Source: Clostridia bacterium (GTDB lineage Bacteria; Bacillota_A; Clostridia; Oscillospirales; Acutalibacteraceae). Taken from it: 10,936 nucleotides of DNA. The DNA lies in contig RZYX01000058.1 in assembly GCA_009930155.1 (NCBI GenBank), forward strand, positions 1-10,936, read 5' to 3'. This document shows positions 1 to 10,936 of this stretch, piece by piece. Under the pieces are notes generated by a model, which was not told the origin of the DNA, searched no databases, and saw only the letters and a list, made by a program, of their open reading frames with translations. The translations under genes and the position numbers were made by a program. Numbering within the stretch: the stretch's first letter is position 1; every line of letters begins with the position of its first letter.

Positions 1-147
1 GTACATACGGATGTTTCTGAGCGACTGCGTAAGCTTAATCCACAGCTTTATACAGAGGTGCGTGAAGTTCTTGATGTTAATAAGGCACAAAGACATATAA
101 GAGGTGGCTTAGCAACAAAGGAAAAATATAAAAAACTAAGTCGCTAG
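1..147 (+). CDS. spoIIID: SpoIIID sporulation transcription factor, C-terminal fragment
   Basis: The window opens inside this gene; 48 codons remain before the TAG stop. The translation begins VHTDVSERLRKLNPQL and continues with RHIRGGLATKEKYKKLSR. It lines up from memory with the second half of SpoIIID (VHKDLTERLPEINP... RHLRGGEATKLKYKK in Bacillus subtilis), covering the end of the helix-turn-helix and the basic C-terminal helix that contacts DNA. SpoIIID is a small (about 80-95 residue) mother-cell regulator acting after sigma-E during spore formation. No hairpin terminator is visible between its stop and the next promoter 14 bases downstream, so its transcript may run into the following T-box leader. 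The N-terminal half lies outside the window. The family call is firm; whether the missing part is intact is unknown. Confidence 0.86.
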   Translation, partial: VHTDVSERLRKLNPQLYTEVREVLDVNKAQRHIRGGLATKEKYKKLSR

Positions 148-161
148 GGTATTCGTGCTGC

Positions 162-190
162 TTGACAGTTGTATAATAATGCTGTATAAT
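162..190 (+). promoter_or_regulatory. sigma-A promoter of the first T-box operon
   Basis: TTGACA (162-167) and TATAAT (185-190) are both perfect consensus hexamers, 17 bases apart. The predicted start near 197 places the whole T-box leader in the transcript. With such a strong promoter, control probably lies mostly in the downstream T-box rather than in initiation. Confidence 0.88.
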
Positions 191-196
191 ACACCA

Positions 197-474
197 AAAT
201 CCAAAAATAAATGCATTGACAGAGAAGTGTATTTGCACTTGGCAATCAAAGAGAGTCTGTGGTAGCTGTGAACAGACATTGCCATCAAGTACTGTCGCTC
301 CCGAGCAGGAATCTGAAAGCGTATTGCGTTAGTAGGCGTTCTCGTTAGCTGCGTTAAAGCAAAAGGCTTGTTTGAGCTTTGAGGGTGTGCATTTTTTTGT
401 ATGCTGAAGTTGGGTGGTAACACGGGTGTATCAACTCGTCCCTTCATTAATTTGAAGAGACGGGTTTTATTTTA
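197..474 (+). promoter_or_regulatory. T-box riboswitch leader 1 (specifier probably GTC, Val)
   Basis: Seen: the antiterminator T-box motif GGGTGGTAACACGGG at 412-426, followed by a competing terminator (434-465). Upstream is a Stem I: base GAC (218-220), lower helix GAG/CTC (222-224 with 298-300), specifier-loop 5' strand AAGTGTATT (225-233), upper helix GGCAAT/ATTGCC (241-246 with 278-283), AGAGAG (250-255) and apical stem GTCTGT/ACAGAC (255-260 with 272-277), closing with CCGAGC (301-306). Counting one base plus a 4-nt helix strand back from CGAGC, as in Oceanobacillus glyQ (GGC-A-CUUC-GAGC, from memory), gives GTC at 294-296, a valine codon. The bulge UGGU (415-418) would pair with a tRNA ending ACCA (discriminator A73), compatible with tRNA-Val. 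The motif deviates from consensus GGTACCGCG (AAC for ACC). T-box identity is firm; the amino acid is a reasoned reading. Confidence 0.9.
434..474 (+). terminator. T-box 1 regulatory terminator
   Basis: The arms ACTCGTCCCTTC (434-445) and GAAGAGACGGGT (454-465) pair over 12 positions with one C-A mismatch and one G-U pair, around an 8-base loop, followed by TTTATTTTA. The left arm overlaps the sequence that would pair with ACGGGT (422-427) in the antiterminator, as expected for a mutually exclusive T-box switch. Confidence 0.85.
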
Positions 475-513
475 TTGTTTTTTATGCTCTTATTTTAAAG
501 GGAGGTTTGTTAA

Positions 514-1080
514 ATGGAAATTAGAATAGTTGAGGTGGCTGAAAGAATACGCAGCCTTAGAGAAATTATGAATTTCTCGGTGGAGGAAATGGCAACGGCG
601 GTAAACTACACCACAGAAAGATATCAGGCAGCAGAAAAAGGAGAGATAGATTTCTCCATAAACTTTCTTTATAAATGTGCCGACAAATTTGGCGTTGATA
701 TGGTAGAAATATTAACAGGTGAAAAGCCTCATCTTTCGTTCTATGCAATTACAAGAAAAGGTAGCGGACTTCCAATGGAGCGTCGTTCAGGTTTTAACTA
801 TTTTCATCTTGGTGCAAGGCTTAAAAACAAGCGTTGTGAACCGTTTGTTGTAACAGCACCATATAGTGATGATGAACAAAACCAACCTATTCATCTCTCA
901 TCACATGAGGGGCAGGAATTTGATTATATTTTAAAAGGTAAGATGAAGATTGCACTTGAAAATCATATCGAAATATTGTCGCAGGGTGATAGCGTGTTTT
1001 TTGATTCTTCTCATCCTCATGGAATGATAGCAGTAGATGGCGAGGATTGCACTTTTCTTGCAATAGTACTAAAAAAATAA
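514..1080 (+). CDS. XRE-family HTH regulator with C-terminal cupin domain
   Basis: A 188-residue protein. Residues about 8-68 form an XRE/Cro-type helix-turn-helix (AERIRSLREIMNFSVEEMA, then the YKCADKFGVDMVEILTG end typical of the fold). Residues about 127-185 form a small cupin barrel with HEGQEFDYILKG (H131, E135), a GD turn (G158-D159) and SSHPHGM (H167, H169). XRE-cupin proteins usually repress or activate a neighbouring catabolic or biosynthetic gene in response to a small ligand held in the cupin. The start is set by AAAGGGAGG (497-505), 8 bases upstream. It lies behind the T-box terminator and 36 bases ahead of the ligase gene, so the two form one operon. It is closely similar to residues 7-191 of the fused protein at 5292-2995. 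The two genes share a reading frame with a single TAA between them. The ligand and the DNA target are unknown. Confidence 0.9.
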   Translation: MEIRIVEVAERIRSLREIMNFSVEEMATAVNYTTERYQAAEKGEIDFSINFLYKCADKFGVDMVEILTGEKPHLSFYAITRKGSGLPMERRSGFNYFHLGARLKNKRCEPFVVTAPYSDDEQNQPIHLSSHEGQEFDYILKGKMKIALENHIEILSQGDSVFFDSSHPHGMIAVDGEDCTFLAIVLKK

Positions 1081-1116
1081 GCAAAAGGAATTTTAAAGCG
1101 ACTTAGGGGGATTAAT

Positions 1117-2781
1117 ATGACTGCACAGACATTGCACAAAAAATTTATTGATGAAACATTTGATTATTCTGGTAATCTCATAGACTATAAATTGATTTGC
1201 CCTGAAAAGTTCAATTTTGCTTATGATGTTATCGATAAAATAGCAGAACTTGAGCCAGATAGAATGGCTATTATATGGTGCAATCCAAAGGGCGAGAAAC
1301 AAAACTTTACTTATGGAGACCTTAAAAAGAATAGTGACAAGGTTGCAAATATGCTTAGAGCAAAGGGCATTGGCAAGGGCGATAAGGTAATGCTTGTTTT
1401 AAAGCGTCACTATCAATTTTGGTTTACAATTTATGCACTACATAAGCTTGGAGCAATAGCGATTCCTGCAACATTTTTGCTTACAAAGCACGATGTTGAA
1501 TACAGGGCAAATGCTGCGGGCGTTAAAATGATAATATGCACTGGAGATGGCGATGTTGCAGAGCATGTTGACACGGCAATGCCTGATTGTCCTACAGTAA
1601 AGTCAAGGATTATGGTTAATGGTTCTCGTGACGGCTGGGATAGTTTTGCACAGCTTTTTGAGCAAGCATCTGATAAGTTTGAACCAATTGATTACACCTC
1701 TCATGACCCAATGCTTATGTACTTTTCGTCAGGTACAACGGGTAATCCAAAGATGGTTTTACACCAAAATTCATATCCAATAGGTCATTTGATAACTGCA
1801 AAGTATTGGCATAATGTTAACCCAAATGGTTTGCATCTTACAATTTCTGATACAGGATGGGCAAAGGCTGCATGGGGTAAAATTTATGGTCAGTTTATGA
1901 TGGGAAGTTGCCAATTTATATATGATTTTGACAAATTTGATGCTAAAGATATTTTAGAAAAAATATCAGATTATAAAATCACAACTCTTTGTTGTCCACC
2001 AACAATGTTCAGATTCTTTTTGCAGGAGGATGTTAAGTCATACGACCTTTCATCACTAAGTTATTGCAACATAGCGGGTGAGGCACTGAGCCCAGATGTT
2101 TTCAACAAATGGTATGAAGCAACAGGGATAAAGCTAATGGAGGGTTTTGGTCAAACAGAAACAACTGTTTTGATTGCAAACCTTATAGGCATGACACCAA
2201 AGCCAGGCTCGATGGGCAAACCTGTACCTCATTATGATGTTAAAATAGTGGACGAGAATGGTGTGCCTGTACAAACTGGAACTACAGGTGAAATAGTTGT
2301 AAGAACAGAGTTCAAAGCACCTATCGGACTTTTCACAGAATATTATAACGATGATGTAAAAACAAAAGAATCTTGGCACGACGGATTTTATCACACGGGT
2401 GATACTGCATGGTGTGATGAGGATGGCTACTTTTGGTATGTTGGCAGAACAGATGATGTTATCAAATCTTCTGGTTATCGCATAGGACCATTTGAGATTG
2501 AAAGTGTTCTTGCAGAGCATCCATCTGTTTTAGAAAGTGCTGTAACAGGTATACCAGATCCAATAAGAGGAAATTTAGTTAAGGCTACAATAGTTCTTCG
2601 CTCTGGATTTGAACCATCAGATGATCTTATAAAAGAAATTCAGACTTTTGTTAAAAATGAAACAGCACCATATAAGTACCCACGAATTGTTGAGTTTGTT
2701 GATGAACTACCAAAAACAACAAGTGGAAAAATTCGCCGTATAGCTATTCGACAAGCAGATTTAGAAAAAAATAATAATTAA
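1117..2781 (+). CDS. AMP-forming acyl-CoA synthetase (Acs/MACS-like), stand-alone form
   Basis: A 554-residue member of the ANL adenylating family, related to acetyl-CoA and medium-chain acyl-CoA synthetases (COG0365 type). It converts a carboxylate, ATP and CoA to acyl-CoA, AMP and pyrophosphate. The core motifs are intact: P-loop SSGTTGNPK (204-212), GFGQTE (343-348), YHTGD (425-429), hinge region RTDDVIKSSGYR (444-455) and the A10 lysine in PKTTSGKIRR (K538). It should therefore be active and cytoplasmic. The start has AGGGGG (1105-1110), 6 bases upstream. It follows the XRE-cupin gene in a T-box-controlled operon, an unusual setting because T-boxes normally govern aminoacyl-tRNA synthetases, amino-acid biosynthesis or transport. 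This suggests the acyl-CoA feeds amino-acid synthesis. I remember a Methanosarcina relative described as preferring 2-methylbutyrate. By eye it is roughly half identical to the fused ligase at 5292-2995. The substrate is not proven. Confidence 0.93.
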   Translation: MTAQTLHKKFIDETFDYSGNLIDYKLICPEKFNFAYDVIDKIAELEPDRMAIIWCNPKGEKQNFTYGDLKKNSDKVANMLRAKGIGKGDKVMLVLKRHYQFWFTIYALHKLGAIAIPATFLLTKHDVEYRANAAGVKMIICTGDGDVAEHVDTAMPDCPTVKSRIMVNGSRDGWDSFAQLFEQASDKFEPIDYTSHDPMLMYFSSGTTGNPKMVLHQNSYPIGHLITAKYWHNVNPNGLHLTISDTGWAKAAWGKIYGQFMMGSCQFIYDFDKFDAKDILEKISDYKITTLCCPPTMFRFFLQEDVKSYDLSSLSYCNIAGEALSPDVFNKWYEATGIKLMEGFGQTETTVLIANLIGMTPKPGSMGKPVPHYDVKIVDENGVPVQTGTTGEIVVRTEFKAPIGLFTEYYNDDVKTKESWHDGFYHTGDTAWCDEDGYFWYVGRTDDVIKSSGYRIGPFEIESVLAEHPSVLESAVTGIPDPIRGNLVKATIVLRSGFEPSDDLIKEIQTFVKNETAPYKYPRIVEFVDELPKTTSGKIRRIAIRQADLEKNNN

Positions 2782-2826
2782 AATCGAACTATAAATCTAC
2801 TTTGTTATAACTTTATAATTATTTTA

Positions 2827-2876
2827 AAAAAGTCATTATTGTAGTTGCTAAATTCTACAATGATGGCTTTTATTAA
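2827..2876 (+). terminator. terminator of the XRE-cupin/ligase operon
   Basis: AAAAGTCATTATTGTAG (2827-2843) and CTACAATGATGGCTTTT (2855-2871) pair along their full 17-base length, counting G-U pairs, around an 11-base loop. The right arm ends in a T-run. The A-rich left flank makes it potentially bidirectional. It lies 45 bases after the ligase stop. Confidence 0.8.
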
Positions 2877-2930
2877 GTTAAATAATATTACTTTTTCAAA
2901 TATTATATTGTTTTATTTTTACACTTATAA

Positions 2931-2974
2931 ACAAAAAGATAGCAGACACATTTTTGTGCCTGCTATCTTTTTGT
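2931..2974 (-). terminator. bidirectional terminator after the fused regulator-ligase gene
   Basis: Perfect 15-bp arms ACAAAAAGATAGCAG (2931-2945) and CTGCTATCTTTTTGT (2960-2974) flank a 14-base loop that holds a further CACA/TGTG pairing. On the minus strand the stem ends in TCTTTTTGTTT, 20 bases past the stop at 2995. The A/T symmetry lets it also serve as a second terminator for the plus-strand operon. Nothing else gene-like is visible in 2782-2994. Confidence 0.85.
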
Positions 2975-2994
2975 TATTTTTATGAAAGTTGAAT

Positions 2995-5292
2995 TTATTG
3001 ATTTCTCAGTTCTACTCTTCTTATTTTACCACTGATTGTTTTTGGTAGTTCATCAACAAACTCAACAATTCGTGGGTACTTGTATGGTGCTGTGTGGGTT
3101 TTAACATATTTTTGAATTTCCTTTTTTAACTCATCAGTGCCTACAGTGCCTTTTGTTAAAACAATTGTAGCTTTAACAACTTGACCACGAATTGGGTCTG
3201 GTGCACCTGTTGCGGCACATTCAAGAATGTAAGGAAGTTCCATAATAACGCTTTCAATTTCAAAAGGTCCTATGCGATAACCAGAAGATTTGATAACATC
3301 ATCTGTTCTGCCAACATACCAAAGGTAACCGTCCTCATCACGCCATGCAGTATCACCTGTGTGATATATTCCGTCGCTCCAAGCTTCCTTAGTTTTTGCA
3401 TCGTCATTATAATATTCCATAAATAATCCAAAAGGAACTTCTTTATCTGTGCGGATTACAATTTCACCAACTTCACCAACGGGAACACTTTTGCCGTCAG
3501 CCGATATGATATCAACATCATACATAGGGCTAGGTCTGCCCATTGCACCAACTTTTGGGGTAGTGCCAACAGGATTAAATACAGAAAGGGTAGTCTCCGT
3601 TTGTCCAAATCCCTCCATAAGGGTAAGACCTGTTGCTTTTTTCCATTGTTCAAAAACCTCTGGGTTAAGAGCTTCGCCCGCTGTAGTTGAATATTCAATT
3701 GTGGAAAGGTCATACTTTGATAAATCCTCTTTTATGAAAAGGCGATACATAGTAGGGGGTGCACAGAAAGTTGTGATGCCATATTTTTTAAACATTGGTA
3801 AAATGATATTTGCGTCAAATCTATTAAAGTCGCATGTGAAAAGTCCTGCTTCACACATCCATTGTCCATAAAGCTTGCCCCAAAGAGCTTTACCCCAGCC
3901 TGTGTCAGCAATTGTAAGATGCAAACCATCAGGGTTAACATTGTGCCAATACTTTGCAGTAATGTAATGACCTAATGGATATTTATAGTCGTGCATAGCA
4001 ATTTTTGGGTATCCCGTTGTGCCAGATGTAAAGAACATAAGCATTGGGTCATTGCCACACGCAGTTTCAGAAGTTCTTGCAAACTCATTACTATACTTAG
4101 GCATTTCTTCATTAAAGTTGTTCCAGCCATCTTTGGACCCACCAACAATTATTTTAGTTTCAAGAGTAGGCGAGCTTGCCATTGCAAGGTCAACTTGATT
4201 TGCAACATCTCCGTCAGAAGTGCAAACAACAGCCTTAACGCCAGCAGCGTTAAATCTGTATTCAAGATCATGAGAAACTAACAAATGTGTAGCAGGAACG
4301 GCAATTGCAGCAAGTTTGTGTAATGCAATAATAGAGAACCAAAATTGGTAATGTCTTTTAAGCACAAGCATTACTCGGTCACCTTTTTTTATTCCAAGAG
4401 AAGCAAAGTAATTAGCTGTCATAGAAGAGTATTTAGCCATATCGTCAAAGCTAAAACGACGCTCTTCAAAGTCGTCAGTAATATGCAACATTGCAGTTTT
4501 GTTGGGGTACTTTTGTGCAAGAACATCTACAATGTCAAAAGCAAAGTTAAAGCTGTCACTGTTCTTGAAAGAAATATCTTTTAAAACTCCATTTTCATCA
4601 ACAGAGGTATTAATAAAGGAGTCTATAACAGTTTCATTTGCTTTTCGCTCAAGCCTTGATTTTACAACTTGTTCAAAATCATTCTCTGGAACATTCTGTT
4701 TATCATCAATATTTGATTGAAGAACAATTGCATATATCTCTGCACATTCTCCGTCAACTGCAATCATTCCGTGAGGAGATGAACTGTTATAATAGATTGA
4801 GTCACCAGCTTCTAAAACTTCAATATGCTCACCAATCTGAATTTTTATACTTCCGCTTATAACAATGTCAAACTCTTGTCCCTCGTGGGTAGAAAGTTTG
4901 ATAGGTTTATCTTGTTCAGATTCAGAATAAGGCATTTTAACATAGAATGGTTCAGCAACTTTTTTCTTGAATAAAGGAGCCATATTAATGTATTCAAAAC
5001 CTTTACGGCGAGCTATCGGCAAACCGTCACCCTTGCGGGTAAGGTTGTATGATGTAAGGGTAGGGCTGACACCACTAATTAAATCCGTAGGGTCAACATC
5101 AAGATGCTTTGCACATTTATATATAAATGTAAAACTAAAGTCTTTTTCACCAAGTTCATATTGGCGGTATTCATCGACTGAAACATCAGTATTGCGTGCC
5201 ATCTCAACTTCAGAAATTTCAAGAATTTCACGAAGTGTTTTAATTCGTTGTGCCACCTCTGCAAGCTGAATGCTCATATTGGTTTTTAGCAT
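2995..5292 (-). CDS. XRE-cupin regulator fused to AMP-forming acyl-CoA synthetase
   Basis: A 765-residue single polypeptide. Residues about 15-75 are an XRE helix-turn-helix, and about 133-191 a cupin (HEGQEFDIVISG, GDS, SSPHGM). A charged linker (about 192-217) leads into a full ANL acyl-CoA synthetase (about 240-765) with P-loop TSGTTGYPK (422-430), the GFGQTE and YHTGD motifs, RTDDVIKSSGYR (from R662) and the A10 lysine K756. The start at 5292 has AGGAGG 7 bases upstream; a second ATG (M6) aligns with the stand-alone regulator's start but has no better site. The architecture matches the two separate genes at 514-2781 joined end to end (755 versus 765 residues). A DNA-binding domain on a metabolic enzyme suggests a trigger enzyme that senses its substrate or product and adjusts transcription, but it could merely co-localise enzyme and regulator. 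It is controlled by its own T-box. Substrate and DNA target are unknown. Confidence 0.92.
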   Translation of the reverse strand: MLKTNMSIQLAEVAQRIKTLREILEISEVEMARNTDVSVDEYRQYELGEKDFSFTFIYKCAKHLDVDPTDLISGVSPTLTSYNLTRKGDGLPIARRKGFEYINMAPLFKKKVAEPFYVKMPYSESEQDKPIKLSTHEGQEFDIVISGSIKIQIGEHIEVLEAGDSIYYNSSSPHGMIAVDGECAEIYAIVLQSNIDDKQNVPENDFEQVVKSRLERKANETVIDSFINTSVDENGVLKDISFKNSDSFNFAFDIVDVLAQKYPNKTAMLHITDDFEERRFSFDDMAKYSSMTANYFASLGIKKGDRVMLVLKRHYQFWFSIIALHKLAAIAVPATHLLVSHDLEYRFNAAGVKAVVCTSDGDVANQVDLAMASSPTLETKIIVGGSKDGWNNFNEEMPKYSNEFARTSETACGNDPMLMFFTSGTTGYPKIAMHDYKYPLGHYITAKYWHNVNPDGLHLTIADTGWGKALWGKLYGQWMCEAGLFTCDFNRFDANIILPMFKKYGITTFCAPPTMYRLFIKEDLSKYDLSTIEYSTTAGEALNPEVFEQWKKATGLTLMEGFGQTETTLSVFNPVGTTPKVGAMGRPSPMYDVDIISADGKSVPVGEVGEIVIRTDKEVPFGLFMEYYNDDAKTKEAWSDGIYHTGDTAWRDEDGYLWYVGRTDDVIKSSGYRIGPFEIESVIMELPYILECAATGAPDPIRGQVVKATIVLTKGTVGTDELKKEIQKYVKTHTAPYKYPRIVEFVDELPKTISGKIRRVELRNQ

Positions 5293-5314
5293 AATAATTC
5301 CTCCTTTTAATTTA

Positions 5315-5358
5315 TAATAAAGAAACCCGTCTCAAAGAATATTCCTTGAGACGGGTTT
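5315..5358 (-). terminator. T-box 2 regulatory terminator
   Basis: On the minus strand AAACCCGTCTCAA (5358-5346) pairs perfectly with TTGAGACGGGTTT (5335-5323), with further GAAT/ATTC pairing inside, followed by CTTTATTAT. ACCCGT of the left arm is also complementary to GCGGGT of the T-box motif, which gives the alternative antiterminator. Confidence 0.9.
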
Positions 5359-5585
5359 AAAAACATACCCGCGGTACCACTCAAATTGCACCAAAAGGTG
5401 CCACCTCAAAGGCTCAAATAAGCCCAATGCATTGTCGTAGCATTAAAACACGAAAGACCCTACTTTTTACATTTCGAATCTTTGGCTCGGAAGGGATAAG
5501 TCATTGAGAAAATTGCGCATCGGCTTTCAGCAATCGCCGACTCTCTAAAGCTCAAAAAATCTCGACCGTCTTCGTCATAGCTGTT
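5319..5585 (-). promoter_or_regulatory. T-box riboswitch leader 2 (specifier probably ATC, Ile)
   Basis: Read on the minus strand. The motif GAGTGGTACCGCGGGT (5382-5367) is an almost perfect T-box antiterminator, followed by the competing terminator at 5358-5323. Stem I shows GAC then GAAG, an AGAGAG element, an apical stem TCGGC/GCCGA around a GATTGCTGAAA loop, and a closing CTTC-CGAGC. GAAG pairs with CTTC (5493-5490). The three bases one position before CTTC, where glyQ carries its GGC specifier, are ATC (5497-5495), an isoleucine codon. UGGU in the antiterminator bulge (5379-5376) fits tRNAs with discriminator A73, including tRNA-Ile. The base after the specifier is C where A is usual, so the codon assignment is less certain than the T-box call itself. 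Confidence 0.93.
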
Positions 5586-5591
5586 AATAAA

Positions 5592-5619
5592 ATTATACTA
5601 GTTTTTAATTCTTTGTCAA
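5592..5619 (-). promoter_or_regulatory. sigma-A promoter of the second T-box gene
   Basis: On the minus strand TTGACA (5619-5614) and TATAAT (5597-5592) are perfect hexamers with a 16-base spacer. The start is expected near 5585, at the beginning of the T-box leader. The -35 box is only 14 bases beyond the stop codon of the upstream VIT gene, with no terminator visible between. Confidence 0.87.
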
Positions 5620-5633
5620 TATGTTTAAACAAA

Positions 5634-6518
5634 TTAAATTTCTACGCCAAGAAAGTGTTTTACAATAAGACCAATAATAAATGAGAGTCCAGCAACGCTC
5701 ATGCTTATTATAGCCATTTCACTAAAATGGGATTTAAAGTTCAAATCTTGTGCGACAGAAAGATAAATGTTAAATGCAAATATAATAAACAAAGCAATAA
5801 ACAACATTACAATAAGTGCAATTAAAGTACTGTTTGCTGGTAAAATTAGATATGGCAAAATTAAAAATGCAACAGTAACTACATATGCAAATCCTGTATA
5901 TGTAGCGGATTTTAATGCATCTTGCCTACCCTCAGATTTTGCAGAAAGATATTCGCTAGATGCCATTGAAAGAGTTGCAGAAATACCAGTGATAAGACCT
6001 GAAAGAGCAACGATTTTGTTGTTGCCAAGTGCAAAGGTAAGTCCTGCAAGAGTACCCGTAAGTTCAACTAGGGCATCACTAAGACCAAGCACCATAGAGC
6101 CTACATATTTAAGCCTTTCTTCATCAAGCAAACCAAAAAGCTCTTGTTCGTGCCTTTCTTCATCCTGTGCAATTTGTTTTGCCTGAGGCACTTCATTTTC
6201 AAGCTTTTTATATAATTTGGAATCTTTAAGTTCACCACGCTCCATAAGTTTTATAGTAAATGTAAAACCAAGGATAACACTAATAACAGTATAAAGCCAT
6301 ATAACGATGGGGCTTACTTTAATATTAATTCCAGTGAACTGTTGCCAAAGGTCAGCATGGGATTTTTCATCTTTTGCAATCTGTTCCAAAACCCTTTTGT
6401 TTTCATCGTTTTTAGCTCGTTTTGCAATGTTGTTATAAACAAAGTATCCCTTAACTTCATTTTTTTGCATTTTTAAAATCAGCTTTTTAATATCATTGCT
6501 CAATGTTGTATCAATCAT
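5634..6518 (-). CDS. ferritin-like domain/VIT (CCC1) family membrane metal transporter
   Basis: A 294-residue membrane protein. The N-terminal part (about 8-135) is a rubrerythrin/ferritin-like helical domain with E21 and two ExxH motifs, E51-K-S-H54 and E120-E-R-H123, the kind of residues that bind a di-iron centre. A hydrophobic helix (about 69-90) sits inside it. From about 138 on comes the VIT1/CCC1 domain: GLSDALVELTGTLAGLTFAL, then SMASSEYLSAKSEGRQDALK (from 184), and several membrane segments (about 143-165, 168-188, 206-226, 231-253, 267-289). Family members move Fe2+ or Mn2+ across membranes, and ferritin-VIT fusions are linked to iron efflux or detoxification. The start has AGGAGG (6524-6529), 5 bases away. 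It is likely a single-gene unit. The metal preference cannot be read from the sequence. Confidence 0.88.
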   Translation of the reverse strand: MIDTTLSNDIKKLILKMQKNEVKGYFVYNNIAKRAKNDENKRVLEQIAKDEKSHADLWQQFTGINIKVSPIVIWLYTVISVILGFTFTIKLMERGELKDSKLYKKLENEVPQAKQIAQDEERHEQELFGLLDEERLKYVGSMVLGLSDALVELTGTLAGLTFALGNNKIVALSGLITGISATLSMASSEYLSAKSEGRQDALKSATYTGFAYVVTVAFLILPYLILPANSTLIALIVMLFIALFIIFAFNIYLSVAQDLNFKSHFSEMAIISMSVAGLSFIIGLIVKHFLGVEI

Positions 6519-6558
6519 AAATGCCTCCTAAAAACATCAATAAAAAAATTCTTTTAAT

Positions 6559-6587
6559 AATTTATTATAAGCTATAGCTTTTGTCAA
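6559..6587 (-). promoter_or_regulatory. possible promoter of the VIT gene, with an internal palindrome
   Basis: On the minus strand TTGACA (6587-6582) is followed 17 bases later by a weak -10 TAAATT (6564-6559). A better TATAAT (6569-6564) lies only 12 bases away, too close for standard spacing. A perfect 12-bp palindrome, AAGCTATAGCTT (6570-6581), fills the gap and could be an operator. The position of the -10 is uncertain. Confidence 0.4.
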
Positions 6588-6621
6588 ACTAATACTGAAT
6601 ATTGCTTTTATATGTTGCCTG

Positions 6622-7320
6622 CTAATTTAAAGATGAATCTTTTTGTGCAGAAGACTTGTTTATTAATTTCTTATAAATAAATGCAGAGATGATAGCAATA
6701 AAGATGTTGCATAAAAATGAGATTATAAATGCTGGTGATGTAGGGTCTGTTATAGTTGAACCAATAAAGGTAATAGCTATAATGCGAGATGAAAATCCCA
6801 AAACTCCGCCTAAAACATATCGGGTATAGCTTATTCCAACAGAGCCCATATAAAGGCTTACAACATCACTTGGAAGTATTCCTATTACTCTGGCAATATA
6901 AGAAAAAAAGAAGTCATTATTTTTTTGAATTGATGATAAAACACTTAGCTTTTTATATTTATTTATAAGATTATCTGCAAACTCACTGTCATAGTATCTT
7001 CCAATCCAGTAGGGAGTGCTTATGCAAATAGCAACACCTATTGTGTTTACGATTATTGCAGTAGGTATATTAAAAATGTTACCACTTACAATCATCAACA
7101 GAGAAATAGGGAAAACAAAAGAAAGGCTTTTTAAAGCATACATAATAAGTAAAAATAAAATAGCCAGCGGTATGTTTTGGGGCACATAATTAAGAAGTTG
7201 TTCAACAGTAAGATTCTCTTTAAAAGAGCTTAGCAAAATAGCAATTATTATAATTACCACAAAAGGAAAATAGCGGAAAAACACCTTTAAATATTTTCCT
7301 TTGTTAAGATCGTTTTTCAT
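6622..7320 (-). CDS. VTT-domain (TVP38/TMEM64, DedA-like) membrane protein
   Basis: A 232-residue integral membrane protein with about six hydrophobic segments: about 17-30, 52-76, 84-106, a re-entrant-like stretch around 141-160, about 165-185 and 195-216. It matches the VTT (SNARE-associated/DedA superfamily) pattern, with FPISLLMIVSGNIF and GVAICISTPYWIGRYYDSEF in the first half and the characteristic RVIGILPSDVVSLYMGSVGI stretch with its G-x-x-P-x-D core. Superfamily members are implicated in lipid flipping or scrambling and envelope homeostasis; the exact substrate of this branch is not known to me. The C-terminal tail is basic and polar. The start has GGAGG (7327-7331), 6 bases upstream. 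It points the same way as the VIT gene, about 100 bases upstream of it, but that gene seems to have its own promoter. It is divergent from the ArsC-like gene. Confidence 0.85.
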   Translation of the reverse strand: MKNDLNKGKYLKVFFRYFPFVVIIIIAILLSSFKENLTVEQLLNYVPQNIPLAILFLLIMYALKSLSFVFPISLLMIVSGNIFNIPTAIIVNTIGVAICISTPYWIGRYYDSEFADNLINKYKKLSVLSSIQKNNDFFFSYIARVIGILPSDVVSLYMGSVGISYTRYVLGGVLGFSSRIIAITFIGSTITDPTSPAFIISFLCNIFIAIISAFIYKKLINKSSAQKDSSLN

Positions 7321-7358
7321 AAAAAACCTCCGTCGGTAATGTTTTTTTAAAAATTAAT

Positions 7359-7386
7359 ATCTTATCTATTATATTACATTAGTCAA
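7359..7386 (-). promoter_or_regulatory. possible promoter of the VTT gene
   Basis: On the minus strand TTGACT (7386-7381) and TAAGAT (7364-7359) are 16 bases apart. The -35 is one base off consensus and the -10 two off. The distance to the start codon is reasonable. This call rests only on pattern. Confidence 0.4.
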
Positions 7387-7421
7387 TAGACTTATTTTTA
7401 TAACTATTATAACATGAAAAG

Positions 7422-7464
7422 ACAGTACACTTAAGTTTTTTATACAAAGCTTTAAGTGTACTGT
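7422..7464. repeat. perfect 13-bp inverted repeat (hairpin A)
   Basis: ACAGTACACTTAA (7422-7434) and TTAAGTGTACTGT (7452-7464) are exact reverse complements with a 17-base spacer. An extra G-U pair could extend the stem. It sits upstream of both divergent genes. The weak ATTTTA tail makes it a poor plus-strand terminator. It could be an operator, a relic terminator or a mobile-element remnant. Confidence 0.7.
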
Positions 7465-7470
7465 ATTTTA

Positions 7471-7496
7471 AAAGTTATTTTATTAAAAATAACTTT
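7471..7496. repeat. perfect 11-bp inverted repeat (hairpin B)
   Basis: AAAGTTATTTT (7471-7481) and AAAATAACTTT (7486-7496) are exact reverse complements with a 4-base loop. It begins 6 bases after hairpin A. Its right arm overlaps the first bases of the probable -35 box of the ArsC-like gene, a position that suits a repressor site. Confidence 0.7.
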
Positions 7497-7523
7497 GTAT
7501 ATACTTTTACAAAATGATATAAT
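7495..7523 (+). promoter_or_regulatory. probable promoter of the ArsC-like/metallopeptidase operon
   Basis: A perfect -10 TATAAT (7518-7523) lies 17 bases after a weak -35, TTGTAT (7495-7500). The predicted leader is about 150 bases. Confidence 0.5.
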
Positions 7524-7677
7524 AACCGTAATAATACTGCTTTATGTTTCAATGCTTTTTTATTTATGTGATATAACAATCATATTTTTATTATATAAAG
7601 CTTTAAATGGTAATGTGTTTAATGGCAAAATAATAATTGAGGCAAGTTCAATTATAATAACAAATGGAGTGATTTAT

Positions 7678-8034
7678 ATGAAAGTCTTGTTTATAGAATA
7701 TCCCAAGTGCTCAACTTGCCAAAAGGCAAAAAAGTGGCTTGATGAACATGGCGTTGAGTATGATGATAGACATATAAAGGAGCAAAGACCAACAAGACAG
7801 GAACTTGAAAAATGGTATGGAATGAGCGGGTTTTTGCTTAAACGCTTTTTTAACACAAGCGGAGTTTTATATAAACAATTGGGATTAAAAGATAAACTGC
7901 CACAAATGAGCGAAGAACAGCAACTAGATTTGCTTGCAACAGATGGAATGATTGTTAAGCGTCCGCTCATTATTGCGGATGATTTTGTGCTTGTAGGATT
8001 TAAAGAAAAAGATTGGGAACAAAAACTGTTATGA
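7678..8034 (+). CDS. ArsC/Spx-family thioredoxin-fold protein
   Basis: A 118-residue protein beginning MKVLFIEYPKCSTCQKAKKW, with a C11-S-T-C14 redox motif at the N-terminus of the first helix. It also has the family features RPTRQEL (37-43) and the late DGMIVKRPLI segment (89-98) with K94-R95. This is the ArsC-related/YffB/Spx fold. Relatives are glutathione- or thiol-dependent reductases (arsenate reductase-like) or, in Spx, RNA-polymerase-binding redox regulators. The short length and RPL motif fit the uncharacterised ArsC-like group better than true arsenate reductase; I cannot separate these further. The reading frame is open from 7456, but ATG 7678 is preferred because it has GGAG (7666-7669), 8 bases upstream, and starts the conserved fold. 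Its stop overlaps the next start by four bases (ATGA). Confidence 0.85.
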   Translation: MKVLFIEYPKCSTCQKAKKWLDEHGVEYDDRHIKEQRPTRQELEKWYGMSGFLLKRFFNTSGVLYKQLGLKDKLPQMSEEQQLDLLATDGMIVKRPLIIADDFVLVGFKEKDWEQKLL

Positions 8035-8549
8035 AATATGAATATACTTTAAAGCGTTCAAAAAGAAAATCGCTTGCACTGGAAATATCATGTAACTCTG
8101 AAATTATTGTGCGTTCACCAATGCGCCTTTCACAGAGGAAAATTGATAATTTTGTAAAGAAGCATGAGCAGTGGATAGAAATACACCTAGAAAAGCAAAG
8201 CAAGAGGCAGTGTGCAAAGGAACTTACAACACAGCAAATAGAAGAGCTGAAAAAGCAGGCGAGGGAAGTGATACCCCAAAAAGTGGAGTATTATAGCAAC
8301 CTTATGGAGCTTTATCCAACAGGAGTTAAAATAACCTCGGCTCAAAGGCGCTTTGGCAGTTGTAATGGTAAAAATAGCATATGTTTTTCCTATCGCTTAA
8401 TGCAGTATCCCAGTGAGGCTATAGATTATGTTGTGGTGCACGAACTTGCACACATAAAGCATAAAGACCATAGCAAAAATTTTTATTCACTTATTGCACA
8501 ATATATGCCCGACTACAAAGCAAGGGATGCAATTTTAAAGAATATGTAA
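8031..8549 (+). CDS. DUF45 (YgjP-like) zinc metallopeptidase-fold protein
   Basis: A 172-residue protein. The zinc site is H137-E-L-A-H141 followed by H147 in the KDHSKNFY segment. Ahead of it is the family's R-W/F-GSC motif (RFGSC, 107-111) and an N-terminal strand-rich part (RSKRKSLALEI). This is the YgjP/WLM-like metallopeptidase group (DUF45, M48-like), whose physiological substrate is not established. The start ATG overlaps the stop of the ArsC-like gene (ATGA, 8031-8034) and has only a weak GGGA about 11 bases upstream, so translation is probably coupled. An ATG at 8013 in the same frame lies inside the upstream gene and is less likely. No clear terminator follows; the next gene appears to have its own promoter. 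Confidence 0.87.
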   Translation: MKYEYTLKRSKRKSLALEISCNSEIIVRSPMRLSQRKIDNFVKKHEQWIEIHLEKQSKRQCAKELTTQQIEELKKQAREVIPQKVEYYSNLMELYPTGVKITSAQRRFGSCNGKNSICFSYRLMQYPSEAIDYVVVHELAHIKHKDHSKNFYSLIAQYMPDYKARDAILKNM

Positions 8550-8572
8550 AAAGTTTTTTAAAGTAAAATAAA

Positions 8573-8601
8573 TAGACGAAATATAAAAATTTATTTATAA
8601 T
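8573..8601 (+). promoter_or_regulatory. probable promoter of the BusR-like regulator gene
   Basis: TAGACG (8573-8578) and a perfect TATAAT (8596-8601) are 17 bases apart, giving a start near 8608 and a leader of only about 22 bases. No GTAAC/GTTAC pair like that of the opuC operator is seen here, so autoregulation is not evident. Confidence 0.55.
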
Positions 8602-8629
8602 AAATTGACTTGGAGGAAGGCAAAGGCAT

Positions 8630-9271
8630 ATGCAAGACAATATAAAAAACAAAATATCAATACCACGATATCAACAAATTGCAATTGAAATTGCATCAAG
8701 AATTGCAAGTGAAGAATATAAAGTGGGCGAAAAAATATATGCTCGTTCTTCTTTAGCTAGTCAATATGGAGTTTCAGCAGAAACAGCGAGAAGAGCTATT
8801 TGTGTATTGTCTGATTTAGATATTGTTACTTCTGAAAAAGGCAGTGGTGTTACTATTAAATCCCACGAGAATGCTGTAAATTTTATTAAACAATATAATA
8901 AACGTAAAACGATAGACACAATCAAGTCTAATATGTTATTGAGTTTTCAGCGTCAAAAGAATGAGATGGAAAACTTAAACGGTTGTCTTTCCGAGCTTCT
9001 TGAGGCTACAGAGCATTTTAGATCACTTAATCCGTTTATGCCATTTCAGATTAATATAACAAAAGATACGGAGTATATAAACTGCACGATTGCTGAGCTC
9101 CAGTTTTGGCAACATACAGGTGCAACAGTAATAGCAATTAAAAGAGAAGGCTCATTGGTAGTTTCTCCTGGACCTTATTTTGTTCTTTTAGAAAATGATA
9201 TTTTGTATTTTATTACACAAGATGATTCAATGCAGAGAGTTAAAAATTTTATATATCCACAAGAATATTAG
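8630..9271 (+). CDS. busR: BusR-like GntR/RCK_C transcriptional regulator (c-di-AMP responsive)
   Basis: A 213-residue protein. Residues about 12-78 are a GntR-type winged helix (PRYQQIAIEIASRI, then YGVSAETARRAICVLSDL and the wing EKGSGVTIK). Residues about 82-130 are heptad-rich and likely a coiled coil. Residues about 139-209 are an RCK_C/TrkA-C domain (IAELQFWQHTGATVIAIKRE, then a PGPYFVLLENDILYFI end). This exact order defines BusR of Streptococcus and Lactococcus, a tetramer that binds c-di-AMP through RCK_C and represses the glycine-betaine transporter genes. The start has GGAGGAAGG (8612-8620), 9 bases upstream. It is followed by its own terminator and then by an OpuC-type transporter with a BusR-like operator, which supports the functional call. 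Ligand binding is inferred from the family and is not visible in the sequence. Confidence 0.85.
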   Translation: MQDNIKNKISIPRYQQIAIEIASRIASEEYKVGEKIYARSSLASQYGVSAETARRAICVLSDLDIVTSEKGSGVTIKSHENAVNFIKQYNKRKTIDTIKSNMLLSFQRQKNEMENLNGCLSELLEATEHFRSLNPFMPFQINITKDTEYINCTIAELQFWQHTGATVIAIKREGSLVVSPGPYFVLLENDILYFITQDDSMQRVKNFIYPQEY

Positions 9272-9277
9272 TCTAAG

Positions 9278-9319
9278 TGCTAACCAATACTTTTTATAGT
9301 GTTGATTAGCATTTTTTTT
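9278..9319 (+). terminator. terminator of the busR-like gene
   Basis: TGCTAACCAATACT (9278-9291) pairs with AGTGTTGATTAGCA (9298-9311) with one C-A mismatch and one G-U pair around a 6-base loop, followed by eight T. It starts 7 bases after the stop. The transporter genes downstream are therefore mainly expressed from their own promoter. Confidence 0.85.
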
Positions 9320-9326
9320 AGGCAAT

Positions 9327-9355
9327 TTGACAAAGTAACAACTTATAAGTATAAT
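9327..9355 (+). promoter_or_regulatory. sigma-A promoter of the opuC operon
   Basis: TTGACA (9327-9332) and TATAAT (9350-9355) are perfect and 17 bases apart. The start is expected near 9362, so the transcript would begin inside the right arm of the surrounding inverted repeat. The repeat thus acts as DNA and not as an RNA hairpin. Confidence 0.88.
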
Positions 9356-9369
9356 TAAGTTGTTACTTT
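9332..9369. promoter_or_regulatory. BusR-type bipartite operator
   Basis: The perfect 13-bp arms AAAGTAACAACTT (9332-9344) and AAGTTGTTACTTT (9357-9369) are separated by 12 bases. They bracket the -10 box of the opuC promoter: the left arm fills the -35/-10 spacer and the right arm covers the start site. The GTAAC (9335-9339) and GTTAC (9362-9366) half sites are exactly 22 bases apart, the spacing reported for the BusR motif in Streptococcus agalactiae. Binding here would block RNA polymerase. Confidence 0.8.
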
Positions 9370-9384
9370 ATAAGGAGGACAAAT

Positions 9385-10521
9385 ATGATTCGTTTCGAAA
9401 ATATATCAAAATCTTTTAAAACAAAAGAAGTACTTAAAGATGTTAGTTTCACTGTTGGGGAAGGAAAGTTAGTTGCAATCATTGGCGAGAGTGGATGTGG
9501 AAAAACTACTCTACTTAAAATGATAAACTGCTTAATCAGACCCAAAAGAGGAACTATTTATATTAAAGGGGAAAATATCCAAAGCCTTGATGTTATTGAA
9601 CTAAGAAGGAAAATGGGTTATGTTATTCAGCAAACTGGTCTTTTCCCTCATATGACAGTTAGAGAAAACATTGAGATTATCCCTAAAGTACAAAAAAAAG
9701 ATGCAAATTTAATAATCGAGAATACACTTAATCTAATGGAAATGGTTGGACTTGACAGTAAAGAGTTTTTAGACAGGTATCCAACAGAACTAAGTGGAGG
9801 TCAACAGCAAAGAGTTGGTGTTGCCCGTGCTTTTGCAACTGATCCTGAAATTATATTAATGGATGAACCTTTTTCAGCACTGGACCCAATGACAAGAGCT
9901 GATTTGCAAGATGAATTGGTTGAATTGCAGTCTAAATTAAAAAAGACAATTGTCTTTGTAACACATGATATGGATGAGGCTATTAAAATTGCAGATATGA
10001 TTTGTATTATGAAGGACGGAAAAATACTGCAATATGATACACCAGAAAATATACTAAAAAATCCATATGATGAATATGTTTCTAGTTTTGTTGGAGCTGA
10101 GAGGATATGGTCATCACCTGAATTTATAAAAGTATCAGATATTATGATTGAAAAGCCAGTTACAGCATCAAAAGACCTTTCAGTTTTAAAATGTATGGAT
10201 AAGATGAGGCAATATAAAGTAGATAGTTTGATTATTGTTGAAAAAAATACCCGCCAAATGCAAGGTATTGTTAAGGCGAGCAAACTTAGAAATGTTGAGG
10301 ACAAATCACAAGCTTCTTATGGCTTTATGCAAAGTGAATTTCCAACACTTTCGCCGGACGATACAATTTTAGATGCTCTAAAAATAGTTAATGAAAAATC
10401 AACATCTACGGTACCGGTTGTTGATGAAAACAATCGATTAAAGGGCCTGATAACACGCAGTAGTTTGGTTACAACACTTAGCGAGCAATACTTTGACTTT
10501 GAGGAGGATGATATAGTATGA
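9385..10521 (+). CDS. opuCA: OpuCA-type osmolyte ABC transporter ATPase with CBS domains
   Basis: A 378-residue cytoplasmic ATPase subunit for uptake of quaternary ammonium osmolytes (glycine betaine, carnitine or choline). The nucleotide-binding domain has Walker A GESGCGKTT (34-42), signature LSGGQQQR (136-143), Walker B IILMDEP (156-162) and H-loop VTHD (192-195). The C-terminal part (about 245-370) carries two CBS repeats (VSDIMIEKPVTASKDLSVLK and the LSPDDTILDALKIVNEKSTS segment), followed by an acidic tail FDFEEDDIV. In Listeria and Staphylococcus OpuCA the CBS pair binds c-di-AMP and lowers transport. The start has AAGGAGG (9372-9378), 6 bases upstream and just after the operator. The stop overlaps the permease start by four bases (ATGA). 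The exact substrate cannot be told without the binding protein. Confidence 0.92.
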   Translation: MIRFENISKSFKTKEVLKDVSFTVGEGKLVAIIGESGCGKTTLLKMINCLIRPKRGTIYIKGENIQSLDVIELRRKMGYVIQQTGLFPHMTVRENIEIIPKVQKKDANLIIENTLNLMEMVGLDSKEFLDRYPTELSGGQQQRVGVARAFATDPEIILMDEPFSALDPMTRADLQDELVELQSKLKKTIVFVTHDMDEAIKIADMICIMKDGKILQYDTPENILKNPYDEYVSSFVGAERIWSSPEFIKVSDIMIEKPVTASKDLSVLKCMDKMRQYKVDSLIIVEKNTRQMQGIVKASKLRNVEDKSQASYGFMQSEFPTLSPDDTILDALKIVNEKSTSTVPVVDENNRLKGLITRSSLVTTLSEQYFDFEEDDIV

Positions 10522-10936
10522 ATTTTTTTAAATATGTTTCAGAAAACTATTTGCAAATTTTTAATCTCCTCATTGAGCATTTAAAATTAACGGCTATCTC
10601 GGTTGGGCTTGCTATTTTAATTGGTGTTCCATTAGGTATATTAATATCTTATTCTAAAAAGGCAAATAAGCCTGTTTTGGGATTTGCAAATATTGTACAA
10701 GCCATTCCAAGCCTTGCTTTGCTTGGCTTTATGATTCCACTTTTGGGCATTGGTAGAGTGCCTGCGATTGTAGCGGTTGTTTTATATTCATTGCTACCTA
10801 TAATAAAAAACACTTATACAGGTATAGATAATATCAATCCGCAAACATTAGAGGCGGCAAAAGGTATAGGTCTAACACCAGTTCAAATTTTGACAAAGGT
10901 TCAAATTCCATTGTCGTTGCCTGTTATTATGGCGGG
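10518..10936 (+). CDS. opuCB: OpuCB-type osmolyte ABC transporter permease, N-terminal part
   Basis: An incomplete gene: 139 full codons to the right edge, beginning MNFFKYVSENYLQIFNLLIE. Hydrophobic segments at about 24-45, 57-76 and 80-95 alternate with polar loops. The cytoplasmic EAA loop that docks on the ATPase is clear: E116-A-A-K-G-I-G, then ILTKVQIPLSLPVIMAG. This matches the BPD_transp_1 permeases of the OpuCB/OpuBB/ProW group. The start ATG overlaps the opuCA stop (ATGA), with GAGGAGG (10501-10507) 10 bases upstream inside opuCA, so translation is coupled. In many Clostridia this subunit is fused to a substrate-binding domain; the window ends too early to say. Confidence 0.9.
   Translation, partial: MNFFKYVSENYLQIFNLLIEHLKLTAISVGLAILIGVPLGILISYSKKANKPVLGFANIVQAIPSLALLGFMIPLLGIGRVPAIVAVVLYSLLPIIKNTYTGIDNINPQTLEAAKGIGLTPVQILTKVQIPLSLPVIMA

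Follow-up and report, generated by a model that had tools for sequence, protein, structure and literature searches.

Two paralogous AMP-forming acyl-coenzyme A (acyl-CoA) ligases were found under two T-box riboswitches in a 10,936-nucleotide (nt) stretch of DNA from a Clostridia bacterium (contig RZYX01000058.1, positions 1 to 10,936; this whole stretch is called the window). The ligase on the minus strand is fused to a helix-turn-helix (HTH) and cupin regulator and has an isoleucine T-box, and the ligase on the plus strand is split from its regulator and appears to have a valine T-box. We consider it probable that the isoleucine-controlled fused ligase acts on 2-methylbutyrate and the valine-controlled split ligase on isobutyrate, both feeding reductive carboxylation, the substrates being predicted from the evidence given here. 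A preliminary description, made from the letters of the window, had proposed the same substrates, and three results from relatives supported it: a residue of the acyl pocket switches between Gly and Ala along with the codon, VorB-type oxidoreductase operons lie beside the ligase pair, and ilvC is rare where a genome has at least two of these ligases.

The isoleucine-side unit lies on the minus strand. Its sigma-70 type promoter (TTGACA-16-TATAAT, 5592..5619) matches 12 of 12 consensus bases and is followed by leader 2 (5344..5587), which scored 97.8 bits (E 4.8e-21) with the Rfam covariance model RF00230, above its gathering score of 93 bits. The leader has the AGAGA apical motif, specifier loop, UGGN bulge and terminator; the core GTGGTACCGCG was an exact match at 5370..5380, with U as the N of the bulge, and the intrinsic terminator (5323..5358) has 16 pairs and a folding z of -8.5. 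The independent promoter and T-box that had been noticed before the fused gene are therefore well founded. The specifier AUC (Ile) is at 5495..5497 by the Rfam register and by related leaders. Read as ATC at 5497-5495, it is separated by a single base (5494) from CTTC (5490..5493), the 3' side of the helix below the specifier loop, which pairs in the minimum-energy fold with GAAG (5570..5573), the 5' side; covariation in relatives agrees with both sides, and the Rfam alignment with the CTTC side as well. The letters and coordinates first given for this codon and helix were exact. In the minus-strand folding that had been suggested as a check, GAAG/CTTC was paired and the terminator was strong, but stem I alone was no better than shuffled sequences (z 0.84); it is the Rfam alignment and the relatives that fix the register. 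On these grounds we take leader 2 to be confirmed, at the level of sequence, as a T-box with an AUC (Ile) specifier.

The gene behind leader 2 (2995..5292, minus strand) encodes a protein of 765 amino acids with an XRE-type HTH, a cupin and an AMP-forming acyl-CoA ligase (Pfam HTH_3, Cupin_2, AMP-binding and AMP-binding_C). Its ligase part has the features of AMP-forming acyl-CoA synthetases, namely PF00501 and PF13193, the TSGTTG motif (T422-G427) and the C-terminal lysine (K756), and motif and lysine were invariant in 14 sequences. A His/Glu/His triad is the mark of a metal-binding cupin, and H136, E140 and H174 of the cupin part, also invariant in 14 sequences, seem to form a triad of this type.

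The specifier was then read across relatives, which came from a named-genome scan (the best 80 of 575 confirmed relatives of the fused gene) and from further loci of sampled genomes. The final ligase alignment had 273 rows, six of them with too little upstream sequence for a leader reading; two short sequences, L026 (AUC, broken frame) and L260 (GUC, Ala), were not included. The exact core was present within 600 nt upstream in 66 of the 80 named-genome loci. The script that read the specifiers requires a near-consensus T-box core; in the first set L046, L175, L192 and L211 were set by hand to AUC and L151 and window leader 1 to GUC, L281 was set to AUC by eye, and other triplets called by the script in L159, L176 and L230 were reset to no T-box, since Rfam finds none there. 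This gave 184 T-boxes readable by script or eye (149 AUC, 31 GUA and 4 GUC), on which the statistics of the residue-codon column given below are based. Rfam scans of 32 script-negative loci (L304 for its second gene) added seven, all AUC with Gly at that column (L170, L182, L224, L227, L245, L256 and L283). Altogether, 191 of the 273 ligases had readable specifiers, 156 AUC (Ile), 31 GUA and 4 GUC (Val), and a specifier for any amino acid other than Ile or Val was seen in 0 of the 191 readable leaders. The base 3' of AUC was A in 98, C in 37, G in 7 and T in 3 of 145 AUC rows, and the 5' neighbour varies too, which leaves AUC as the one constant frame. Full pairing of the helix below the specifier loop, with its 5' anchor picked without looking at the 3' side, was seen in 97.2% of 179 rows vs 71.9% after shuffling (maximum 76%); where the 3' side was something other than CTTC (51 rows), the figures were 94.1% vs 42.6% (maximum 56.9%).

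The split paralogue is on the plus strand. A promoter-like TTGACA-17-TATAAT (162..190, read by eye and unscored) precedes leader 1 (207..446), which scored 98 bits (E 4.2e-21) with RF00230, and the RF00230 alignment gives GTC at 294-296, i.e. a GUC (Val) specifier in the same register as leader 2. In split homologues such as L156 and L185 this register is occupied by AUC. Stem I of leader 1 alone folds otherwise, so its Val reading is less certain. Behind the leader are a stand-alone XRE HTH and cupin regulator of 188 amino acids (514..1080) and a stand-alone AMP-forming acyl-CoA ligase of 554 amino acids (1117..2781), both assigned by Pfam; fused and split ligases are 59% identical and the regulators 50%. 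The matched Ile/Val pair that had been suggested for the window recurs in tandem form, an AUC copy directly preceding the Val copy on the same strand in 29 of 36 Val-leader loci. The ligase tree requires three changes between the Ile and Val states (in the tandem Val clade, in the window split ligase and in L151), and the window split ligase is sister to L185, which is 66% identical and AUC-controlled. Because these changes are separate, the Val copy of the window and the tandem Val copies look like independent inventions of one pairing.

One alignment column, in the motif DTGW[G/A]K, fully separated Val from Ile ligases in the first 166 rows. The window residues at this column are Gly467 of the fused ligase (AUC; codon 3892..3894, minus strand, in DTGWGK) and Ala249 of the split ligase (GUC; codon 1861..1863, plus strand). 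The rule was then applied to a second batch, in which Ala stood behind 22 of 22 Val leaders and Gly in all 54 Ile rows of the alignment. Phylogenetically this batch adds little that is new, as most of its Val rows came from tandem loci like those of the first, and 9 of its 117 ligases were already in the first. Over the pooled 184 rows, Ala was the residue of all 35 Val-specifier ligases and of 0 of 149 Ile ligases (Gly 146, Met 3); with the seven later rows the Ile copies had Gly in 153 and Met in 3. The next best column reached 33 of 35 Val vs 8 of 149 Ile. The 83 rows called T-box-free by the script had 58 Gly, 19 Ala, 5 Met and 1 Leu at this position. In E. coli Acs the aligned residue is 310, which corresponds to Ile312 in archaeal numbering by an offset of 2 taken from Trp416/Trp414 (PMC10455477). 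Ile312 is described as one of four acetate-pocket residues, and Val at its position was proposed to accompany broader specificity (PMC3477478). In ACSS3 a smaller residue was modelled to open space (PMC10906504), at what is by our own reading the same place. Judged from these alignments, Gly in the Ile copies and Ala in the Val copies would fit a C5 and a C4 branched acid, and is what such a pair of substrates would ask for.

Several other observations concern the leaders and ligases of relatives. Of the seven T-boxes added by Rfam, all except L245 scored 52-72 bits, well under gathering, and have degenerate antiterminator cores in place of ACCGCG; their stem I still gives AUC, and they may differ in mode, e.g. 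by acting on translation. The AUC-controlled split ligases of L164, L209 and L212 have Met, not Gly, at the pocket position and may differ in substrate. Split HTH-cupin and ligase loci with no T-box found were L113, L140, L142, L143, L145, L146, L148 and L149; seven of the eight are Ala-type and L113 is Gly-type, and L143 lies beside a Vor-like operon. L020 has, at 1350-5596 and just upstream of an AUC-controlled fused ligase, a T-box with CUC (Leu) before a leuA-like gene and then an 824-amino-acid frame (TIM barrel and AMP-binding ligase), and T-box cores with a similar ligase occur in L021 and L030, so a third, leucine-linked ligase is possible. Outside this group, Bacteroidota records (Bacteroides, Parabacteroides, Phocaeicola and Prevotella) contain homologues that are 48-51% identical to the fused protein over 94-100% of its length.

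VorABC-like genes, which the preliminary description had suggested looking for, were found in relatives. Downstream of the Val gene of L061 come a small P-loop ATPase and then three 2-oxoacid:ferredoxin oxidoreductase subunits, of which the alpha subunit passes the NCBIfam VorB (NF005507) cut-off (541 vs 399 bits). Among fused Val-specifier ligases with at least 700 nt of downstream sequence, 25 of 33 had a gene of such a VorB-type operon within 900 nt downstream, vs 2 of 113 fused Gly-type Ile ligases. A Val gene placed in between would account for the rarity of the operon next to Ile ligases. In 35 of 242 examined loci, relatives of the oxidoreductase subunits were near a ligase. The P-loop ATPase of L061 (10928-11593, 221 amino acids) is weakly of the CbiA/MinD type, with Pfam CbiA just below cut-off, and homologous ATPases accompany the VorB-type operon in related loci, in most cases placed after the Val ligase and before the operon.

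The search for missing ilv genes was likewise made in relatives. Twenty genomes were examined closely; ilvC was over cut-off in 6 of them and in two fragments in a seventh, at least one ligase was present in all 20 and two or more in 17. No ilvC was found in Neglectibacter timonensis (L001/G001), a cultured host of an AUC ligase. We also surveyed 394 genomes of one order, of unstated completeness, scoring at most three candidate ligases per genome and counting ilvC as present at E below 1e-40. Of 155 genomes lacking such a ligase, 113 had ilvC; the figures were 71 of 103 for genomes with a single ligase and 20 of 136 for those with two or more (20/136 vs 184/258 with one or none, p 3e-28, uncorrected for phylogeny). 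leuB was present in 42 of the 136 genomes with two or more ligases. With ilvC and leuB both mostly missing, these hosts appear to have lost canonical branched-chain synthesis broadly.

The route that we infer, including tRNA binding, substrates, direction of flux, a Vor enzyme of the host and sensing by the HTH-cupin part, would run as follows. Uncharged tRNA-Ile would pair with both AUC and the UGGU bulge, allowing the terminator to be avoided and the fused ligase to be made. This ligase, which resembles MacsMa of Methanosarcina acetivorans and MbcS of Staphylococcus aureus, would convert 2-methylbutyrate, presumably taken up from amino-acid fermentation by other microbes, to 2-methylbutyryl-CoA. 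A VorB-type 2-oxoacid:ferredoxin oxidoreductase would then carboxylate 2-methylbutyryl-CoA to the 2-oxoacid, and transamination would give isoleucine. For valine, the split paralogue with its GUC (Val) T-box would take isobutyrate along the same route, the change from Gly to Ala narrowing the acyl pocket of the Val copies. Since the ligase would be made when the amino acid is scarce and spends ATP, flux is most likely towards the amino acid. Some rumen bacteria need branched-chain volatile acids. In the rumen literature, 2-methylbutyrate is regarded as a precursor of Ile and isobutyrate as one of Val, with older work cited (PMC7356843). A wider proposal, for which we see about equal chances of being right and wrong, is that this starvation-controlled volatile-acid route replaces ilvC in many Oscillospiraceae-type gut and rumen bacteria, that codon (AUC to GUN) and pocket residue (Gly to Ala) changed in concert on at least three occasions, which would let the RNA codon predict the substrate, and that the fused enzyme is also a ligand-sensing transcription factor.

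The main rival is that the ligases mainly prime branched-chain membrane fatty acids and that the T-boxes report scarcity of the primer source. The nearest curated family is that of MbcS, whose role was shown to be in membrane fatty acids (PMC10026030), and hosts with two or more ligases, being mostly without leuB and ilvC, could be plain auxotrophs. However, the VorB-type operons adjoining the pair would be superfluous for lipid priming from free acids and speak against it as the main role, and lipids need no separate Ile and Val control of two pockets, so we think this explanation unlikely. Less likely again, and in our view very improbable, is that the Ile-controlled ligase activates propionate, with propionyl-CoA going to 2-oxobutyrate and the ilv enzymes completing the path to isoleucine. 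Isoleucine is normally made from 2-oxobutyrate and many one-ligase hosts have ilvC (71/103), but this route needs ilvC, which is missing in 116 of the 136 genomes with two or more ligases, and the Gly of the Ile copies makes their pocket the larger of the two, although propionate should need a smaller one. A different register for the specifier (UAU, UUA or UCC), or a leader that is not Ile-selective, we hardly credit at all, although at least one T-box with a shifted frame is known (PMC7778990) and stem I alone is not unusually stable, because AUC is constant while both flanking bases vary and the codon tracks the active-site residue.

Several points weigh against the route from 2-methylbutyrate and isobutyrate to the two amino acids. 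The link between residue and codon comes down to three independent switches, 3 of 3 concordant (sign test p 0.25). A complete T-box was not found for 76 of the 273 ligases, of which 40 were negative by Rfam too and 35 lay outside the Rfam scans; one of the 76, L167, has a truncated T-box further upstream. The Ala-type copy was not seen in 4 of the 20 closely examined genomes (G002, G008, G011 and G020), and the window contains no Vor genes. The limits of the genome survey given above, i.e. phylogeny, the number of scored ligases and completeness, apply to the ilvC association. We rejected the idea that leuB is selectively kept where ilvC was lost (24/116 vs 12/74, p 0.57). Finally, both window ligases miss the MbcS equivalog cut-off of 850, the fused one with 428.4 and the split one with 490.9.

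T-boxes, AMP-forming acyl-CoA synthetases and the use of branched-chain acids are already known. As far as we have seen, Ile and Val T-boxes on paired, often HTH-cupin-fused ligases are new, and so is an active-site residue that follows an RNA codon; a link between T-boxes and such ligases was not found in open-access titles and abstracts, which is weak evidence of novelty because the subscription literature was mostly outside this search. The pair provides candidate genes for the branched-acid activation step in rumen-type Ile and Val supply, and its regulatory logic, starvation-induced and ATP-spending, suggests the direction of flux. It also offers a one-residue prediction of ligase substrate, and lets an RNA codon annotate a family of enzymes that carry broad labels such as 'AMP-binding protein'.

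Other genes of the window lie apart from this system. At 5634-6518 there is a membrane protein of VIT1 type with a rubrerythrin-like N-terminus. At 8630-10934 a GntR and TrkA_C regulator adjoins a ProV-type betaine/choline ABC transporter (proV over cut-off), which we take to resemble the c-di-AMP-sensing BusR arrangement.

Among known systems, the leader is closest to the T-box riboswitch (RF00230), with which it shares the over-gathering score, AGAGA motif, specifier loop, UGGN bulge and terminator. It differs in that the 5' side of its specifier loop is gapped where the Rfam consensus has AGUA. The usual T-box targets are aminoacyl-tRNA synthetases and genes of amino-acid synthesis and transport, whereas the gene under leader 2 encodes an acyl-CoA ligase with an HTH-cupin regulator fused to it. 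AUC itself is the usual Ile specifier (99% in TBDB; PMC7778990). The VorB family (NF005507, 3-methyl-2-oxobutanoate dehydrogenase) has a member in the L061 alpha subunit and none in the window. MacsMa (PDB 3etc) is the nearest PDB sequence to the fused protein (655 bits over residues 245-764, a match that excludes the HTH-cupin part), has Gly at the pocket position as in the Ile copies, and prefers 2-methylbutyrate (PMC10455477). MbcS (NF047394) is the best NCBIfam match of the window ligases, and its substrates are 2-methylbutyrate and isobutyrate (PMC10026030); it differs in its role, membrane lipid priming, and in using one enzyme for both acids, whereas the window would have a tuned pair.

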